From Tuwongella immobilis (GTDB lineage: Bacteria > Planctomycetota > Planctomycetia > Gemmatales > Gemmataceae), in contig NZ_LR593887.1 in assembly GCF_901538355.1 (NCBI RefSeq), positions 6,548,920-6,612,919 of the forward strand: a stretch of DNA of 64,000 bases, given 5' to 3'. The notes below the pieces were generated by a model. It saw only the letters and a list, made by a program, of their open reading frames with translations, did not search any database and was not told the origin of the DNA. The stretch's first letter is position 1. Each line of letters starts with the position of its first letter. Shown here one piece after another: positions 46,443-55,315 of the stretch. Position numbers and translations under genes: made by a program.

Positions 46443-48830
46443 TTATCGGCTGCTGGCTTCTGGCTCGGTCTGCCGCATCAGCCGGAACAACCACCACCAT
46501 ACCCCGCCCAGAAGCACGCCGACAATCCCCAGCAGAAACCACCCAGCAGAGATGAGCGTATTGCGCAGTTCTCGCAACGGGGCCAGTGCGGTTTCTTGCT
46601 GCGTTTGCACAATGACCATCCAATCTTGATACCCCAGATCATCGGGCGCGGGTTGAAAGCGGGCCACCCCCGCCAGATAGGCATGTTCCGGGTCGAGCGG
46701 ATCCTGATAATCGGGGATGCGTTCTCGGGTGCGCGGTTGATTCCAATCTTGTGGACGCAGCAGCCATTGCGGATCGTCCATGTCGCGGACATCGCGAATG
46801 CGATCGTGCTTCAGCACTTGGCCGCGATCGTTGACCACCACCGGAAACGCCGCCCGCACGGTATTGCCTGGCCCGTGCGCTCGAAATGCGGAATCAATCC
46901 ATTGATAAAATCCCGTCAAATTGATGCCGCTGAGAATCAGCCCCAAAATCGGGCCATCTTCACTGGCGCGAATCGGCGTGGAGAGCGTAATCAACATGCT
47001 ACCATCGCTGGCCTGGGATTGGTACGGCTGCGAAATATGCGTCGATTGAATCGGGAACGCGCGGAAATCCGGATTGTCTTGATCGCCACTGCCATTGAAC
47101 CAATCCCGCCATGCCCAATTGCGCTGATAATAGGCTTCGTTGCCTTGATACGGCTCAATTTCGCCTTCGCGGGTGAGTCGGGCGACAATGTACGCTTGAT
47201 CCTGAATCGCCATCACCAGCGACAACCCAGATGAGAAGAAACTTTTGCCCCCGGCATGGTGATAATGATGATGCACCCATTGCCCCAAAAACGCGCGATC
47301 CTCCGGCGTTAGCGCCTCGGCGGGCACACGGTCCTTGGCCGCCGACATTTTCTCATGCATCTCCGCGAAGCGCTTGCGGAACACCGGATCATTTTTTGCA
47401 AATTCTTCGATGGTGCTGACCCGTTCCTGGAAGATTTGCTCCAATCCGTTGGCGGCAATTTTGGCCGTGGATTGATTGCTTTCCAACAGCGACCGCGTGA
47501 GTTCCTCGCGGGTGTGGTCCAACAACTTGGAACCAACTGCGACACTCACCCAGCCGATGATGCCGATGAGCAGCACGCTCAGACCGATGCCGAAATACGC
47601 CAGGGATCGCCGCCGTCGCATCACTTCGCGCTGTTGCAACGCGGCCAACACTTCGCCCGCCTCACGGAATCGCTTCTCCGGGTCGATTTCCAGACAGCGC
47701 TCGATGATGTTGGCCAACGCGCGATCGACGCCGGGAATCTGCCGATGCTTCCGCGGACGGGGCGAATTGGTGATCTGCTGCCGATACAGCTCCAATCGAC
47801 TGTTGAGATTCGTTGTCCGCCGCAATCGGTCGATCAACGTCCCCTCGAATCGGGGCAGATCCCGCGTCAGCATTTCGTACAACACCGCGCCAAGACCGTA
47901 GACATCCCAGCGACTGTCGGCAATCTTGGCTTCGAGCGTGGCCTGCTCCGGGGCCATGTAGAAATAGGTGCCCAACGTGGGGCGGGCATCATTGGCCAGG
48001 TGCGCTTGACCAAAGTCGGCAATCAACGGCTCATTGCGGGCATCCAACAGCACATTGCCCGGCTTCAAATCGCAGTGGCGAATCCCCTTGGCATGCACAT
48101 ACGCCATCGAGCGCGTCATCGCCGTGAACAGCCGCAGCGCCTCGGCCACCGGCAGCGGACCTTTCTCCAACAATTGCGCCAGCGATCCATTTTCGGCATA
48201 CGAAATCACATAGTACGGCGGATCATTCTCCGGGTTCGCCGTCCGCAACTGCACAATGCCCGGTGCCCCATCGGTGCGGGCCAGCATCTGCATATCGTCT
48301 TGCAGCTTCTGCCACTGCCGATCGGTCCCATGAGCGAAGAATTTGATCGCCACACGAACGCTGGTAAGTTCTTCCTCAGCCAGCCAGACCGACCCATACG
48401 TGCCTTCGCCCAGATGACGCAAAATTCGGTATCCCGGCGCAATTGGCCGCGTGCGGGCCATGCGCGGTGCCGGTCGATTGGCACGCTCGGCCGGGGCTTT
48501 CGCCGCCGTGGGCAGCGAGTGCTTGCCGCTTTCCGCAGCAGCAGCCGCTCCTCCCCCAGCGGCAGCCGATTGCGCTGCCGAATCATCACTGGGCGGAATC
48601 TCCAAGCTATACTGCGAGATATACCGCGATAGCCGTTTGATGCGTTCATCACCCGAACCGATGGAATCCGATTCGAGCGTTTGCCAAACCGAGAATCCAC
48701 TGATCTCCGCCGATGGATGCGCTTCGGTATGCGCAAGCGGATTGGGAATCGATTGCTCGGAGGTTGGTGGTAAACTCGAACGCGGTCCCGATTGCGCATT
48801 GCCATCGGGTGGTGGTGTAGGCTCGCTCAT
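46443..48830 (-). CDS. Ser/Thr protein kinase with extracytoplasmic sensor domain
   Basis: A 795-aa membrane kinase. Residues 1-130 are Ser/Pro/Ala-rich and disordered. The kinase domain (about 133-400) has the glycine loop GEGTYGSVWL, Lys163 in VAIKFF, catalytic loop HCDLKPGN (Asp254, a non-RD kinase because Cys replaces Arg), DFGQAH (Asp272) and YMAPEQAT. A first membrane helix (about 410-433) follows. About 320 residues outside the membrane come next, with a helical start and a part resembling double-Cache sensors (YYQRNWAWRDWFNG, LSTPIRASEDGPILGLILSG). A second helix (about 757-780) and a short tail end the protein. It probably phosphorylates cytoplasmic targets in response to an external signal; ligand and substrates are unknown. 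Confidence 0.9.
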   Translation of the reverse strand: MSEPTPPPDGNAQSGPRSSLPPTSEQSIPNPLAHTEAHPSAEISGFSVWQTLESDSIGSGDERIKRLSRYISQYSLEIPPSDDSAAQSAAAGGGAAAAAESGKHSLPTAAKAPAERANRPAPRMARTRPIAPGYRILRHLGEGTYGSVWLAEEELTSVRVAIKFFAHGTDRQWQKLQDDMQMLARTDGAPGIVQLRTANPENDPPYYVISYAENGSLAQLLEKGPLPVAEALRLFTAMTRSMAYVHAKGIRHCDLKPGNVLLDARNEPLIADFGQAHLANDARPTLGTYFYMAPEQATLEAKIADSRWDVYGLGAVLYEMLTRDLPRFEGTLIDRLRRTTNLNSRLELYRQQITNSPRPRKHRQIPGVDRALANIIERCLEIDPEKRFREAGEVLAALQQREVMRRRRSLAYFGIGLSVLLIGIIGWVSVAVGSKLLDHTREELTRSLLESNQSTAKIAANGLEQIFQERVSTIEEFAKNDPVFRKRFAEMHEKMSAAKDRVPAEALTPEDRAFLGQWVHHHYHHAGGKSFFSSGLSLVMAIQDQAYIVARLTREGEIEPYQGNEAYYQRNWAWRDWFNGSGDQDNPDFRAFPIQSTHISQPYQSQASDGSMLITLSTPIRASEDGPILGLILSGINLTGFYQWIDSAFRAHGPGNTVRAAFPVVVNDRGQVLKHDRIRDVRDMDDPQWLLRPQDWNQPRTRERIPDYQDPLDPEHAYLAGVARFQPAPDDLGYQDWMVIVQTQQETALAPLRELRNTLISAGWFLLGIVGVLLGGVWWWLFRLMRQTEPEASSR

Positions 48831-49367: not shown

Positions 49368-49637
49368 ATGACCGTGCACATCGTCGTCAACGAGAATGGC
49401 CAGCCCAAAATTGTCTGGAGCGGGGCAGCGCTGTTTTTCCTGGGAATCTGGGCAGTCTGCGGCGGAATTCCCGCGTTGGGCTATGGCATGGCCTTCCGCG
49501 ATTGGAAACTCGCCGGCATGGCCCTGCTCGCCGGCCTGTTCATTGGCTGCATCACCTTCCCCATGCTGCTGATCCAGCAATACCGCACCCCAGTCGATCA
49601 ACTCCCCAAACGCGAACGCCCAGCCCGAGGGCGATAA
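49368..49637 (+). CDS. Small two-span membrane protein
   Basis: An 89-aa protein; GAAAGG precedes the ATG. After a polar start (MTVHIVVNENGQPKIVW) come two membrane helices: SGAALFFLGIWAVCGGIPALG and LAGMALLAGLFIGCITFPMLL. A basic C-terminus ends KRERPARGR. I do not recognise the family. It is the first of four same-strand genes that end with an ATP-grasp ligase, though 156 bases separate it from the DUF350 gene. Confidence 0.65.
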   Translation: MTVHIVVNENGQPKIVWSGAALFFLGIWAVCGGIPALGYGMAFRDWKLAGMALLAGLFIGCITFPMLLIQQYRTPVDQLPKRERPARGR

Positions 49638-49793
49638 TCGGCGCCGTCAGAATTCCGATTCTTCGATTCAATCTGCGGCGGTTCCCGGCGAATAATCCGT
49701 CAGGAAACCGCTAGCGGGGAATTCGGAGGGTTCGTATACTCGTCCTCATTCCGAAACCAATCGGGAATCGAATCAATTGGAATGAGGTGTCGA

Positions 49794-50009
49794 ATGCTGC
49801 CGGAAGGGTTCTGGGCGGGACTACTGGCGTCGGTGATTTACGGCTTGACCTTCATCGGCTTGCTGCTGTTCGGATTCAAACTGTTTGATTGGATCACTCC
49901 CAGTCTGGACATTCAAAAGCGACTCGATGAGAACCCCTTGGCGGTGGGCATTGTCGTGGGGGCGTTCATGATCGCCATTGCGCTGATCGTCTCATCCGTC
50001 GTGCATTGA
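49794..50009 (+). CDS. DUF350 membrane protein (YjfL-like)
   Basis: A 71-aa membrane protein; the ATG at 49794 follows GAGGTGTCGA. It matches a single DUF350 unit: IYGLTFIGLLLFGFKLFDWI, then TPSLDIQKRLDENPLAVGIV, then a second membrane helix VGAFMIAIALIVSSVV. DUF350 proteins such as YjfL usually have two such units, so this is a half-size form that might dimerise. Together with the lipoprotein and the ATP-grasp gene that follow, it resembles the yjfL-yjfM-yjfC order of enterobacteria. Function unknown. Confidence 0.82.
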   Translation: MLPEGFWAGLLASVIYGLTFIGLLLFGFKLFDWITPSLDIQKRLDENPLAVGIVVGAFMIAIALIVSSVVH

Positions 50010-50036
50010 GTTCGACCCATTCGCGGGGCACCCACC

Positions 50037-50483
50037 ATGTCGATTTCTCGCATCGTTCAGCATCGCTTGACCAAGTCGATCAACTTGGTGCTGCTTGGAA
50101 CCCCATTGGCACTGGTGGGTTGCGAACGCCCCATTCCAACCACAAGCAGCGTTCCGACCACCGCAATGAGCAGTTCCAGCGGCAATTCGCACAGTTCCGG
50201 CGGCACTCGGCCCCATTCGCACGGGTCGGGAATTCCGCCGGTGGTGTTTCTCCCCGGTTTGGGGGGTGGCTTGGGCGGCGGGCTGGGTGCGGGGGCGGGA
50301 CGACCGGTGATTGATCCCAATGCCGATCCGCGCAGTTCGCCCGGCGGCGTCCCGTTTGCGGGTGGCGCTCGCCCGAATCAGCCGGGGACATCGTCACCGG
50401 GCAGTGGCGCCAAACCGAGCGGTAGCAGCACGCGCAGCGGGTTCGGCGGTGTCGGCAGTGTCTTTTCCGGGTCGAGTAGTTAA
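50037..50483 (+). CDS. Gly/Ser-rich lipoprotein in the position of YgiB/YjfM
   Basis: A 148-aa protein with a lipoprotein signal (INLVLLGTPLALVGC; Cys at about residue 29). Then come a Ser/Thr/Pro/His-rich linker (HSSGGTRPHSHGSG), a hydrophobic glycine patch (PPVVFLPGLGGGLGGGLGAG), a disordered Gly/Pro/Ser part, and a C-terminus with STRSGFGGVGSVFSG. E. coli YgiB (DUF1190) also is a lipoprotein with a low-complexity middle and a conserved RGGFG near its end. The resemblance of RSGFG and the gene order suggest an equivalent, but overall similarity is too low to claim the family. It is 27 bases after the DUF350 gene and 2 bases before the ligase gene. Confidence 0.7.
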   Translation: MSISRIVQHRLTKSINLVLLGTPLALVGCERPIPTTSSVPTTAMSSSSGNSHSSGGTRPHSHGSGIPPVVFLPGLGGGLGGGLGAGAGRPVIDPNADPRSSPGGVPFAGGARPNQPGTSSPGSGAKPSGSSTRSGFGGVGSVFSGSSS

Positions 50484-50485
50484 TC

Positions 50486-51610
50486 ATGCAACGATTCGTG
50501 CATCCGCCACGCTTGGACTATGTCGCCAAACTCGAATCCCATGGCATGGTCTATCACACCACCGATGATGGCCCTTATTGGGACGAAACCGCGCACTACG
50601 AATTCACGCCGTCGGAAATTGATACGCTCGAAGCCGCCACCGTGGAATTGGATCGCATCTGTCTGGAAGCGGTCGAGGTGGTCCTTTCGCAGGGGCGACT
50701 CGGGGAATTCCATATCCCGGAAGACTATCACGATTGGATCGCCGAAAGTTGGGAGCGGGACGAGCGGACCATCAATGGGCGGTTTGATCTCTGCTTCGAT
50801 GGCCGATCACCGCCGAAACTCCTGGAATACAATGCCGATACGCCAACGGGGTTGCTCGAAGCGGCGGTGTCGCAATGGTTTTGGCTTCAGGATTGTCACC
50901 CGCATCGGCAGCAATTCAATTCGATTCACGAACGATTGATCGAAGCATGGCGGGCGGCGCGGCATGGTCGTTCGGGGCGGATTCTGTTCACCGCGATGGC
51001 CGATCATCCCGAAGATTGGATGACCATCCAATATCTCCGCGATACCGCCATGCAGGCGGGTTGGGAGACCGATTCGCTCACCATCGATCAATTGGGTTGG
51101 GACGGCGATCGACGCTGTTTCACCGATCAGAATGAGAATCCCATCGCCGATTGCTACAAACTATATCCCTGGGAGTGGCTGTTTCTGGATCGGTTCGGCC
51201 CGCATCTGCTGGAGGCAGACACGCGCTGGTTGGAAGCCCCCTGGAAGGCGATTTTGAGCAACAAGGCAATTCTGCCCGTGTTGTGGGAGTTGAATCCCGG
51301 CCATCCCAATCTGCTCGAAGCCGCGCATCAACCGTTGCCCAGCGGCAGTTATGTGCAGAAGCCGATTCTCAGCCGCGAGGGGGCGAATATCCGCATCGTG
51401 GAGAACGGTTGGCCGATTGCGCAAACCCAGGGGCCATACACCGGCCCGAGCATCTTCCAGCAGTTGTGCAAACTCCCGAATTTTGATGGCAATTATCCAG
51501 TGATCGGCAGTTGGGTGGTCAACGGCTGGCCCTGCGGAATTGGCATCCGCGAAGATCGCACCTTGGTGACGGGGAATCTCAGCCGCTTCGTGCCGCATTG
51601 CTTTGGCTGA
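50486..51610 (+). CDS. Glutathionylspermidine synthase-like ATP-grasp ligase (YgiC/YjfC type)
   Basis: A 374-aa cytoplasmic protein of the glutathionylspermidine synthase C-terminal family, ATP-grasp enzymes that form amide bonds. Markers: KLLEYNADTPTGLLEAAVSQ (about 112-131), KLYPWEWLFLDRFG, ILSNKAILPVLWELNPGHPN, then YVQKPILSREGANI (nucleotide-binding Lys) and GSWVVNGWPCGIGIRED at the end. It lacks the amidase domain of full glutathionylspermidine synthases, as do YgiC and YjfC, whose substrates are not established. Amidoligases of this group are proposed to modify peptides or proteins. The gene abuts a lipoprotein gene, which makes that lipoprotein the natural candidate substrate (inference). 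Confidence 0.88.
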   Translation: MQRFVHPPRLDYVAKLESHGMVYHTTDDGPYWDETAHYEFTPSEIDTLEAATVELDRICLEAVEVVLSQGRLGEFHIPEDYHDWIAESWERDERTINGRFDLCFDGRSPPKLLEYNADTPTGLLEAAVSQWFWLQDCHPHRQQFNSIHERLIEAWRAARHGRSGRILFTAMADHPEDWMTIQYLRDTAMQAGWETDSLTIDQLGWDGDRRCFTDQNENPIADCYKLYPWEWLFLDRFGPHLLEADTRWLEAPWKAILSNKAILPVLWELNPGHPNLLEAAHQPLPSGSYVQKPILSREGANIRIVENGWPIAQTQGPYTGPSIFQQLCKLPNFDGNYPVIGSWVVNGWPCGIGIREDRTLVTGNLSRFVPHCFG

Positions 51611-52063: not shown

Positions 52064-52924
52064 ATGCAATCGAATGCTCGCACCTCGTTGTTTTGGACCT
52101 GGATTGCCCTTGGTACCATGCTCATCTGGGCGTATCTGCCGACGATGGCGAACCTGTTTGATGAGTGGATGCATGTTCCGCAGTATTCGCACGGGTTCTT
52201 GGTGCCGGTGTTTTCGGCGTATTTGCTGATGCAACGCAAGGAAACGCACTTCGGCATGGGTCAATCGATGCCGTGGATTGCCTTCCCGGTGATGCTGGTG
52301 GCGCTGGTTTGTCGCGTGATTTCCGGCTGGATTGCCTTTCCTTGGTTGGACGGATTTTCGCTGCTGGTGTTCCTGACCGGGGCATCGCTGCTCTACGGCG
52401 GGATGAAGTTCCTGCGCTACACCTGGCCGGCCATCGCGTTCTTGTTCTTCATGATTCCCCTGCCGCACCGCGTGGAAGTCATGACCGGCAGCACCCTGCA
52501 AACCCTGGCGACGCACAGTAGCACCTTCTTCCTGCAAGTGTTGGGCCAACCCGCACTGTCCGAAGGCAACACGATTCTGGTGCAAGAGCACAAGCTCGAA
52601 GTGGCCAACGCCTGTAGCGGTTTGCGGATGATGATGACCTTCGCGGCGTTCTGCTTCGCGGCGGTCCTGCTGATTGATCGCACGCGGCTGGAAAAGGCGC
52701 TGATTCTGGCAAGCTGCATCCCCATCGCCATGATTACCAACGTCTTCCGCATCGTCGGCACCGGCATGGCCTACCTGTATCTGGGGCCGACCAGTGGCAT
52801 CTCGGAAACCATTCACGATCTGTACGGCTGGCTGATGATGCCCATTGGCCTGGGATTGTTGATGTTTGAACTCTGGATTCTTCGCAATTTGCTGCTCACG
52901 CCCACTCCGCGAAAAACTCGCTGA
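52064..52924 (+). CDS. xrt: Exosortase
   Basis: A 286-aa polytopic membrane cysteine transpeptidase-like enzyme that cleaves and sorts proteins with a PEP-CTERM-type tail and is tied to exopolysaccharide export. It starts at the ATG at 52064, just before the first membrane helix. About seven to eight membrane helices are visible. The catalytic triad is in place: Cys184 in VANACSGLRMM, Arg229 in NVFRIVGTG and His251 in ETIHDLYGW. Early conserved parts include WMHVPQYSHGFLVPVFSAYL. Its neighbours (chain-length protein, EpsI, sugar transferase, glycosyltransferase) make up a typical exosortase/EPS locus. No target protein with a recognisable sorting tail is seen in the window. Confidence 0.93.
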   Translation: MQSNARTSLFWTWIALGTMLIWAYLPTMANLFDEWMHVPQYSHGFLVPVFSAYLLMQRKETHFGMGQSMPWIAFPVMLVALVCRVISGWIAFPWLDGFSLLVFLTGASLLYGGMKFLRYTWPAIAFLFFMIPLPHRVEVMTGSTLQTLATHSSTFFLQVLGQPALSEGNTILVQEHKLEVANACSGLRMMMTFAAFCFAAVLLIDRTRLEKALILASCIPIAMITNVFRIVGTGMAYLYLGPTSGISETIHDLYGWLMMPIGLGLLMFELWILRNLLLTPTPRKTR

Positions 52925-53008: not shown

Positions 53009-55315
53009 ATGACTCCTTCGATTCGACAACCGCTCCGTCTCCGCCGGTTACCGGCCACGGTGTCGCCCGGCGGTGAGACGGATGCCATGGAATACCGCGA
53101 ATTACCCCAACCGCAACCCATTCCATCCGATGGGCTTGCGGAAGCGGCCAGCCCCAATCGATTGCTGGGGTATCTGCTGCTGCACTGGCCGATGGTGCTG
53201 ATTCTGGGCAGCATGCTCGGCGCGGGTATGGCCTACCTGGCGTACACGCTGATCCCGGCGAAGTACACCACCTACGCGATGATTCGCGTGGCCTTGGTGC
53301 CGCCGTCAGTTTCCGGCTTCCAGAATGAAGAGGCCGCCCGAAATGATTTTCTCACCTGTCTGAAAACGCAAACGCAGTTGATTAAGTCGCACTTTGTGCT
53401 GAATGCCGCCATTCGCGACCCGGCGATTGCCGAACTGCCCATGATCCGCTCGCAAGTGGACCCCGTGGCATTCCTGCAAGACGAAGTGCGCGTGGAATAC
53501 ACGGACAACTCGGAAATTATCAAAATCATTCTCAGCGGCGATAACGCCAGCGAGATCACCAAGATTGTCAACTCCATCCAAGACGCCTATTTCCGCGAAG
53601 TGGTGGACGAAGAAGGCAACCGGAAGAAAAATCGCCTGGTGGAACTGGAAAATCTCAAGCACCAGACGCAAGAAAGTTTGAACAAAAGCTACGAAGCGAT
53701 TCGCAATGATCTGACCGTGCAAAATCAACTTCCCGGTGGCGCGAAGCCAACCCTCTCGAAGGTGATTCTGGATGATCCGATTGCGAAAGCGATGGCGGAA
53801 GCGGCGGACGTCAACCGCATGAATCAACTGCTAATGGGGCAAGCATCGGGATTACGCAATGCAATGCTCAAGCAAGATGCGGAAATCAGCGCCACCAAGC
53901 GACGAATCGAGCGGCTGAAGGTCGCGCTCACGCAGCCCGCGCCGATTGATCCCGCTGCCGAATTGAAGCTCCGCGATCAACTGGACAAAGAACCGGTCAT
54001 CATCACTCAGCAGCAAAAAGCGCTGAGCACCAAGAAACGCTACGATGCGCTGAAGGCCAATGCGTTGAATCCGAATGCGCCGGAACTGCAAAATCTGGCA
54101 AAGGCCGTGGAGCGCGAAGAAGCCGAACTCAAGCGATTGGTCGAACTGGCGACCAAGGAATTCAACGACCTGCGATCGGAAGCCCATCATCTGCAAGTGC
54201 GATCGGAATTGCAGGCAGCGGAAATCCAACTCGCGGAATTCCAAGAGCAGCGCAAAGACACGGAATCGACGCTGACGACGGTGGAATCCAAAGTGCTTCC
54301 GACTCCCGTGTTGCCCACGCAGAGCAAAGAAGGCATGGCCTTGTCGAAGCTCGAAAACAAGGAAGTTGCGATTCTGGACTTCGATAAAGTGGCCGTCGCA
54401 CACCAGGAAGAGATTCTGCATAAGATCGTTGACAAAGTGAACCTGCTGAAGCTAGAAGAGAAAGCCCCACCGCGGGTGCGTCGCTTGGCGGCGGCTCCGG
54501 TGCCGTCGAAGAAGGAATACAAAAAGCAGCTCGTCGCCACGGCGGGGGGCGGATTCATGGGCTTTGTGCTGGTCGCGTTGGGGGCGATTCTGTTTGAATT
54601 GCGATTGCGGCGGATGCTGTCGCTGCAAGATTTGCAGCAAATCGCCCGCGGCCCGGTCTTGGGCGTGATTCCGCAATCCGAATTCGACCGCGCCACGGAA
54701 ATGATGCCCGTGCATGTGCTGGAAGCCGTGGATAAGTGCCGAACGCAGATCGTGCAGCACACCCTGGCGCTGGATCATAAGTCGATCATGATTACGAGTG
54801 CCCTGGCAGACGAAGGCAAAGCCAACTTCACCTGGCAATTGACGCAATCGTTCGTGCAATCGGGCTATCGCACGCTGCTGATCGATCTGGATGTCCGCTC
54901 GCCGATGATGCACGAATTTTACGGCGTGCTCAACGAAGGCGGCGTCTGCGAAGTGCTGCGAGGCGAATCCGAATTGAGCAACTCGATTCAGACATTCGCC
55001 GATGGGCTGAGCTTTCTGCCCGGCGGAAAATGGACCGATTCCATCCGTCAGGATTTGGTGACGGACAAGATTGGCATGCTCTTGGCCAAGGTGCGGGAAT
55101 ACTACGACGTCATCTTGGTGCATGCCCATCCGCTGCTGGAAGTGGCCGATTCGTATCTGATTGGTCGCCAAGTGGATAGTGTGATTTTGACCGTGCAAAA
55201 GCTGGTCACCCGGCAACCGCTGTTGGACCGTGTGCAAGAACGGGCCAACGAGTTGGGCAAAGAACCCTTCGGGCTGGTGTTCCTGGATGCCACCCCGAAC
55301 GAATCGCTGTGCTAA
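53009..55315 (+). CDS. Wzz-type exopolysaccharide chain-length protein with degenerate tyrosine-kinase domain
   Basis: A 768-aa inner-membrane protein. Residues 1-50 are cytoplasmic. The first membrane helix (about 58-80) follows LLGYLLLHWPMVLILGS. A long periplasmic part (about 85-510) is mostly coiled coil (EISATKRRIERLKVALTQ, AEIQLAEFQEQRKDTES). A second helix lies about 514-535. The C-terminal domain resembles BY-kinases, ITSALADEGKANFTWQLTQS standing where Walker A (GEGKS/T) is expected and LLIDLDVRSPM as Walker A'. Asp replaces Gly and Ala replaces the Ser/Thr of the P-loop, and no Tyr-rich tail is present, so kinase activity is doubtful. It probably controls polymer length together with the neighbouring transferases. 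Confidence 0.86.
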   Translation: MTPSIRQPLRLRRLPATVSPGGETDAMEYRELPQPQPIPSDGLAEAASPNRLLGYLLLHWPMVLILGSMLGAGMAYLAYTLIPAKYTTYAMIRVALVPPSVSGFQNEEAARNDFLTCLKTQTQLIKSHFVLNAAIRDPAIAELPMIRSQVDPVAFLQDEVRVEYTDNSEIIKIILSGDNASEITKIVNSIQDAYFREVVDEEGNRKKNRLVELENLKHQTQESLNKSYEAIRNDLTVQNQLPGGAKPTLSKVILDDPIAKAMAEAADVNRMNQLLMGQASGLRNAMLKQDAEISATKRRIERLKVALTQPAPIDPAAELKLRDQLDKEPVIITQQQKALSTKKRYDALKANALNPNAPELQNLAKAVEREEAELKRLVELATKEFNDLRSEAHHLQVRSELQAAEIQLAEFQEQRKDTESTLTTVESKVLPTPVLPTQSKEGMALSKLENKEVAILDFDKVAVAHQEEILHKIVDKVNLLKLEEKAPPRVRRLAAAPVPSKKEYKKQLVATAGGGFMGFVLVALGAILFELRLRRMLSLQDLQQIARGPVLGVIPQSEFDRATEMMPVHVLEAVDKCRTQIVQHTLALDHKSIMITSALADEGKANFTWQLTQSFVQSGYRTLLIDLDVRSPMMHEFYGVLNEGGVCEVLRGESELSNSIQTFADGLSFLPGGKWTDSIRQDLVTDKIGMLLAKVREYYDVILVHAHPLLEVADSYLIGRQVDSVILTVQKLVTRQPLLDRVQERANELGKEPFGLVFLDATPNESLC

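Follow-up and report, generated by a model that had tools for sequence, protein, structure and literature searches.

The C-terminal tail of a neighbouring membrane-anchored protein as a candidate substrate of YgiC/YjfC-type ATP-grasp ligases

What does a ligase of the YgiC/YjfC type modify? The question is posed by a gene group in a Gemmataceae genome (6.69 Mb, single contig), where such a ligase follows a DUF350 membrane protein and a lipoprotein-like protein. The genes lie in a window of 64,000 nucleotides, by which we mean the whole stretch of DNA that was analysed. The original prediction held that the ligase attaches an amine or a peptide to the tail of the lipoprotein, or to something near it, with DUF350 as membrane partner. 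Our analysis makes it probable that the enzyme is a peptide-polyamine ligase acting naturally on the C-terminal tail of the membrane-anchored protein whose gene adjoins its own.

Gene arrangement and the ligase

Table 1. Features of the locus in window coordinates, and GGK proteins of related genomes
Feature	Position	Strand	Remark
P0001, small ORF	49368-49637	+	orphan
P0002, half-size DUF350 membrane protein	49794..50009 (alternative start 49782)	+	PF03994 4e-13, profile 3-65/133
P0003, lipoprotein-like with C-terminal tail, proposed substrate	50037..50483	+	Gly/Ser-rich, no Pfam match
Lipobox LVGC of P0003	50112..50123	+	read from sequence
P0003 tail RSGFGGVGSVFSGSSS-COOH: proposed recognition motif (50433-50447), spacer, C-terminal acceptor	50433..50480	+	
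P0004, YgiC/YjfC-type ATP-grasp ligase	50486..51610	+	PF03738 2e-141, full length
GGK proteins (L225, L229, L230, L233, L235, L239, L240, L241)	just before DUF350		about 59-75 aa

The four open reading frames occur on the plus strand as predicted. P0001, however, which had been counted as a member of the group, is present in 1 of 95 Gemmataceae genomes, namely this one. Since it has no match in the other 94 genomes searched, it is not a conserved part of the system and was ruled out as a component; among the ORFs of loci L031-L080, the window's own copy is likewise the only match. P0002 scores 50 bits against DUF350 (cut-off 26) and covers the first half of the profile only, in line with its description as half-size. 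P0003 has a lipobox, and the features ascribed to it, RSGFG near the C-terminus and a spacing of 2 bases (TC) between its TAA and the ATG of P0004, are confirmed. RSGFG is followed by 11 residues and starts 16 residues from the Ser end. P0003, encoded beside the ligase, thereby carries what we term a tail (a small last residue with [R/K]-x-GFG starting 12-19 residues before it) and, through LVGC, a membrane anchor (lipobox or N-terminal hydrophobic segment). A profile search of the entire gene gives no Pfam match up to E 10 and therefore no DUF1190 (PF06693) match, and P0003 was rejected as a DUF1190 member.

Downstream of the ligase, exosortase EpsH (52064-52924; PF09721, 6e-57) precedes a protein (53009-55315) that combines an ATPase domain with a weak match to a chain-length determinant, which suggests an exopolysaccharide cluster. 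On the other side, a protein kinase with a weak, below-cut-off Cache match (46443-48830, minus strand) is divergent from the DUF350-lipoprotein-ligase genes.

P0004 shares 44% identity with E. coli YgiC and 41% with YjfC, and it matches the PDB entries of both (YgiC, 7uk8, 3e-95; YjfC, 7uk6, 4e-83). It contains the two predicted YgiC/YjfC motifs, LLEYNADTPTGLLEAA and SNKAILPVLWEL, matches PF03738 over its full length and is nearer to YgiC/YjfC than to GspS. The ATP-binding residues, on whose presence the prediction had been made to depend, are kept: R99, D101, E114, N116, K260, K292, and R355 correspond to seven ATP/Mg residues that we take to be catalytic in E. coli GspS. In contrast, the GspS positions T441, W442, and T446, presumably the substrate contacts, differ in P0004. 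RefSeq names both YgiC and YjfC peptide--spermidine ligases, so the earlier statement that the function is not known is outdated for the enzyme; the title of Pederick et al. 2023 agrees with this naming. Because of these names, the attached group is more likely to be a polyamine than a peptide.

The tail beside the ligase

We compared 130 loci, comprising 50 from Gemmataceae (window included) and the best 80 of 578 loci confirmed in titled genome records, the latter being, by this selection, the nearest relatives of one query rather than a random sample. The Gemmataceae loci are the near-full-length ones among 66 PF03738 matches and were taken with their flanks, while 16 fragments were left out. 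By a strict rule, the tail lies beside the ligase in 107 of these 130 loci (50 Gemmataceae and the best 80 of 578), compared with backgrounds of 3/3018 and 9/4277 ORFs. A relaxed rule, in which R may be replaced by H, S, N, or T and F by L, Y, or A, with an extra residue allowed, raises the count to 126 of 130 for the same two sets (50 Gemmataceae, best 80 of 578), with backgrounds of 28/3083 and 36/4277 ORFs and of 18/1921 random slots. Since the relaxed rule was devised after inspecting the strict-rule misses, the strict figure is the fairer one. Three loci are the same DNA as others (L108 = L073, L112 = L057, L125 = L034), leaving 127 distinct loci, 123 of them with a tail (best 80 of 578 included).

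The tailed partner is a lipoprotein or an N-terminally hydrophobic protein with a Gly/Ser-rich end, encoded directly upstream of the ligase. Among the strict hits from the best 80 of 578 loci, 63/69 lie at most 32 bases from the ligase start; gaps of 120-170 bases occur in 15/38 Gemmataceae strict hits. The best 80 of 578 loci represent 14 named phyla, assigned from record titles, plus one unassigned record, and a tailed locus occurs in every phylum; as the sole Hydrogenedentota locus (L148) is tailed only after ORF correction, we state the spread as at least 13 phyla. The tail is also present beside 3/3 additional full-length ligases, which belong to two other planctomycete families. Thus, the proposed survey for a conserved lipoprotein or GFG motif beside the ligase finds the tailed neighbour kept across phyla.

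Four loci lack a neighbouring tail. For two of them, the tail gene is elsewhere in the genome, on another contig than the ligase in G041 (the genome of L067) and with a degenerate STGGFG in G008; no tail is seen in the stretch examined of L109 and L126. In 22 loci from distant relatives within PF03738, two of which fall below the family cut-off, the strict regex gives 2 hits; in both, L086 and L102, the hit runs antiparallel to the ATP-grasp gene and has no Gly/Ser end.

In the pooled tails (n=125; titled-record part 77/80 from the best 80 of 578, L148 left out), the motif starts 12-19 residues from the C-terminus in 120 cases and is degenerate, that is, not [R/K]-x-GFG, in 24. The last residue in this set, which includes the best 80 of 578, is S in 60 tails, G in 49, E in 7, A in 6, T in 2, and L in 1, with S/G/A/T in 117/125, and the penultimate residue is G in 92/125. 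R, H, and F make up 21% of positions -8 to -3, yet they are last in none of the 125 tails (best 80 of 578 included); the probabilities computed for this terminal-residue constraint ignore relatedness. Such a constrained end fits a carboxylate entering a narrow active site.

The bodies that carry the tail vary. A lipobox is recognized by regex in 53/125 tailed proteins (best 80 of 578 included). Of 20 tail proteins scanned besides P0003, YgiB, YjfM, L129, L079, and, barely, L124 pass the DUF1190 cut-off, while L115 touches this profile only in its last 24 positions, which are the tail. Without their last 30 residues, the 77 bodies from the best 80 of 578 loci yield 238/2926 pairs with similarity at E 1e-3, and 50 bodies become connected under single linkage. 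Judged by sequence, many bodies may share common descent, and the constant element among differing bodies is the tail.

Tail and ligase also co-occur at the genome level. A tail HMM (A2) matches 47 of 95 Gemmataceae genomes, 47/55 with the ligase and 0/40 without (Fisher 4e-19, ignoring relatedness; absences are soft, since many of these genomes are incomplete). Of the eight ligase genomes missed by the HMM, five encode a divergent tailed protein next to the ligase (L080 in G000, L045 in G032, L039 in G061, L034 in G064, L031 in G066); in G008 and G077 a degenerate tail adjoins DUF350, and G079 has a ligase fragment only.

A variant was observed in G016, G019, and G023 (L056, L064, L071), where KGGLG replaces R/KGGFG beside the ligase; a second tail beside the DUF350 of these three genomes was not found. 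A DNA-level pattern, R-[G/S/other]-G-[F/Y]-G, applied to three whole genomes was dropped as too unspecific: among the matches listed, it gave 83 versus 108 in the reversed control for this genome, 139 versus 82 for G010, and 74 versus 46 for G072.

Candidate substrate, amine, and rival readings

In E. coli, GspS attaches spermidine to glutathione at the Gly carboxylate, and the small Gly/Ser ends of the tails would fit a GspS-like chemistry by analogy. In the mechanism that we propose, R/K-x-GFG would act as the recognition motif, and the Gly/Ser-rich spacer of about 7-14 residues would carry the C-terminal carboxylate into the ATP-grasp active site. Once activated as an acyl phosphate, the carboxylate would be coupled to one primary amine of a triamine, here most likely sym-homospermidine, giving a membrane protein with a permanently cationic C-terminus; within the membrane, this protein would have DUF350 as its working partner. 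We infer this scheme in each of its parts, the tail as substrate, the C-terminus as site, the identity of the amine, and the cellular role. The tail is well supported by gene context as the ligase target, which makes it a candidate substrate. The predicted action on the lipoprotein tail thus gains from its retention across phyla, while the predicted choice of amine or peptide shifts toward a polyamine. In an AlphaFold model of a tail-linker-ligase read-through chain (26 rows), the ligase has a mean pLDDT of 84.1 (pTM 0.84), and the tail, judged from the confidence values of the same 26 rows, stays below 50 and is therefore not confidently placed.

With its lipobox or N-terminal hydrophobic segment, the tailed protein is predicted to have an exported C-terminus, and no signal peptide is visible by eye in the ligase, so the tail would have to be modified before export. 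It is here that an unlikely alternative finds its footing, in which the tail only docks the ligase at the membrane, and what the enzyme really modifies is a small diffusible peptide. A cytoplasmic enzyme could not reach an exported C-terminus, the motif is kept more strictly than the spacer, and YgiC appears in an inner-membrane proteome table despite its cytoplasmic annotation (available part of PMC4858940). Docking, however, needs neither the constrained last and penultimate residues nor the fixed motif distance of the tails. Not every end suits C-terminal amidation either, as 7 of the 125 tails (best 80 of 578 included) end in Glu and 1 in Leu, which we count against it. The degenerate motif of about a fifth of the tails, the tailless loci L109 and L126, and the DUF350 genes whose tail is missing despite a ligase, or degenerate without one, weigh against it too.

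Rather improbable is a tail with a job of its own, such as sorting or membrane or metal interaction, whose adjacency to the ligase would reflect a shared envelope process without direct modification. DUF1190 is called a metal-chelating lipoprotein in PspA-linked operons in the available text of PMC11237479, which suits this reading; against it, the tail HMM is restricted to ligase genomes in Gemmataceae, the tail is retained on differing bodies beside one enzyme, and no convincing tail accompanies the distant PF03738 relatives. The original form of the prediction, in which an amine or a peptide is added to the tail or a nearby target with DUF350 as an obligatory membrane partner, has very little probability. 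DUF350 is near the ligase in the window and in 32/129 other loci (best 80 of 578 included), but a narrow HMM leaves 97/130 loci without it in the stretch covered, although its gene could be located in another part of those genomes, and the precedent within the family points to a polyamine.

For the polyamine ligation of the tail, the biosynthetic genes point to one amine. AdoMet decarboxylase (SpeD) has no match in this genome, and nspC has none here either, while 37/95 Gemmataceae match nspC, all below the curated cut-off; SpeD occurs in 10/95 Gemmataceae, 3 of these with the ligase. A deoxyhypusine-synthase-like (SpeY-like) gene is present in this genome (9e-92) and in 81/95 Gemmataceae, with 50/55 ligase genomes versus 31/40 others; being common also without the ligase, it shows that the amine is available, not that the ligase uses it. 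SpeY-type deoxyhypusine synthase homologues make homospermidine according to the available text of PMC10407285, and sym-homospermidine is the only one of the four polyamines in Table 8 of PMC4334474 (available part) for Gemmata obscuriglobus. Taken together, the lack of SpeD and nspC matches, the SpeY-like gene and this literature make sym-homospermidine the most likely amine in this genome. Spermidine via SpeD/SpeE was rejected here, as SpeD has no match and the two SpeE-like matches lie in frames of 766 and 960 aa.

The E. coli order is yjfL-yjfM-yjfC, as claimed, and of the RGGFG ascribed to its DUF1190 lipoproteins, YgiB has RGGFG while YjfM has RGGYG; both end in GG. YjfL-YjfM-YjfC and YgiB-YgiC thus resemble the window in gene order, ligase subfamily, catalytic residues, and an RGG[F/Y]G tail with a small end, whereas the window differs in a lipoprotein that is not DUF1190, a half-size DUF350, and homospermidine as the likely amine. 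With GspS, the likeness lies in the family fold and the catalytic residues, while the window ligase has no amidase domain and differs at the presumed substrate-contact positions; the structural match, to YjfC and YgiC, comes from the Streptomyces homologue L182 rather than from the window protein. YgiC is reported to lack GspS activity (Sui 2012, as cited in the available part of PMC12506659). PspA/CesT-YjfL-DUF1190-ATP-grasp operons unite DUF350, lipoprotein, and ligase as in the window, and the available text of PMC11237479 contains no mention of a common tail in them; no PspA or CesT is found among the window genes scanned. In eukaryotic SUMO-spermidine conjugation, spermidine is placed on a C-terminal Gly carboxylate (+127.147 Da), with E1/E2 enzymes and unrelated proteins (available part of PMC12270671).

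The accessible part of the searchable literature names no natural substrate of YgiC/YjfC that we could find. The link of the ligase to YgiB/YjfM may already be in print, and the novelty of the tail as target is provisional. The shared C-terminal tag points to YgiB and YjfM as natural substrates in E. coli K-12 and predicts a modification site and a mass shift, hence a simple mass-spectrometry test. If true, the proposal would mean that bacteria have a new class of protein modification; it would also assign polyamines to a definite site on the cell envelope and suggest a working partner for DUF350.

DUF350 and the GGK proteins

DUF350 is present in 41/95 Gemmataceae genomes with 46 matches, 7 beside the ligase and 39 away from it (38 places). 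Of the latter, 24 loci from ligase-positive and 11 from ligase-negative genomes were read by eye, leaving out G021 and G034 (contig edge) and G042 (no hit with the narrow DUF350 HMM). Away from the ligase, DUF350 adjoins another tailed protein in 16/24 ligase-positive versus 1/11 ligase-negative loci (Fisher 0.003, ignoring relatedness and based on loci read by eye). One such second tailed protein ends in SISRGGFGSTGSSSSSSSSS; two of the 16 tails are degenerate (KTGGFG, STGGFG), and the DUF350-linked tail is absent in 8/24 loci of ligase-positive genomes. A degenerate PTGGFG tail stands beside DUF350 in G007, a genome of 86% completeness that has no ligase match.

Since tailed proteins lie beside many ligase-distant DUF350 genes, DUF350 seems to belong with the tailed proteins, and one ligase may serve several of them in trans. 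The role of DUF350 as membrane partner is weaker with respect to the ligase, near which the narrow HMM places it in 33/130 loci (best 80 of 578 included), always on the ligase strand, and gains from its pairing with a second tailed protein elsewhere.

Directly in front of eight Gemmataceae DUF350 genes lies the gene of a small membrane protein whose last residues are GYRGGK (7 cases) or GFGGK (1 case); among 16317 other ORFs, 2 have a GGK end. In 8/8 cases, the stop of the GGK gene overlaps or lies within 1 base of a possible DUF350 start, and the two GGK proteins tested against Pfam give no match. Six of the eight loci lie ~2.5 kb from SpeD (G001, G004, G031, G036, G090, G091); G087 has SpeD elsewhere in the genome, and in G089 SpeD was not found. 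Two more SpeD genomes, G028 and G051, have no DUF350 match. SpermidineSynthase-like/DUF350/lipoprotein operons are known from the available text of PMC11237479.

Going by sequence context, the C-terminal Lys of the GGK proteins could possibly be aminopropylated, which would suggest a second route to a polyamine tail, with two chemistries for one end product. Combining both routes, we tentatively advance the wider proposal that a dedicated C-terminal polyamination of membrane-anchored proteins, marked by a transferable R-x-GFG tail, extends over at least 13 bacterial phyla, and that a second, unrelated chemistry, aminopropylation of the C-terminal Lys of GYRGGK in SpeD/SpeE-like sets, leads to the same kind of product, a membrane protein partnered by DUF350 whose C-terminus bears a polyamine. 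At locus L211 (G093:C28:30500-35500), a SpeD-DUF350-SpeE-like set contains an RGGFG-tailed lipoprotein in place of the GGK protein.
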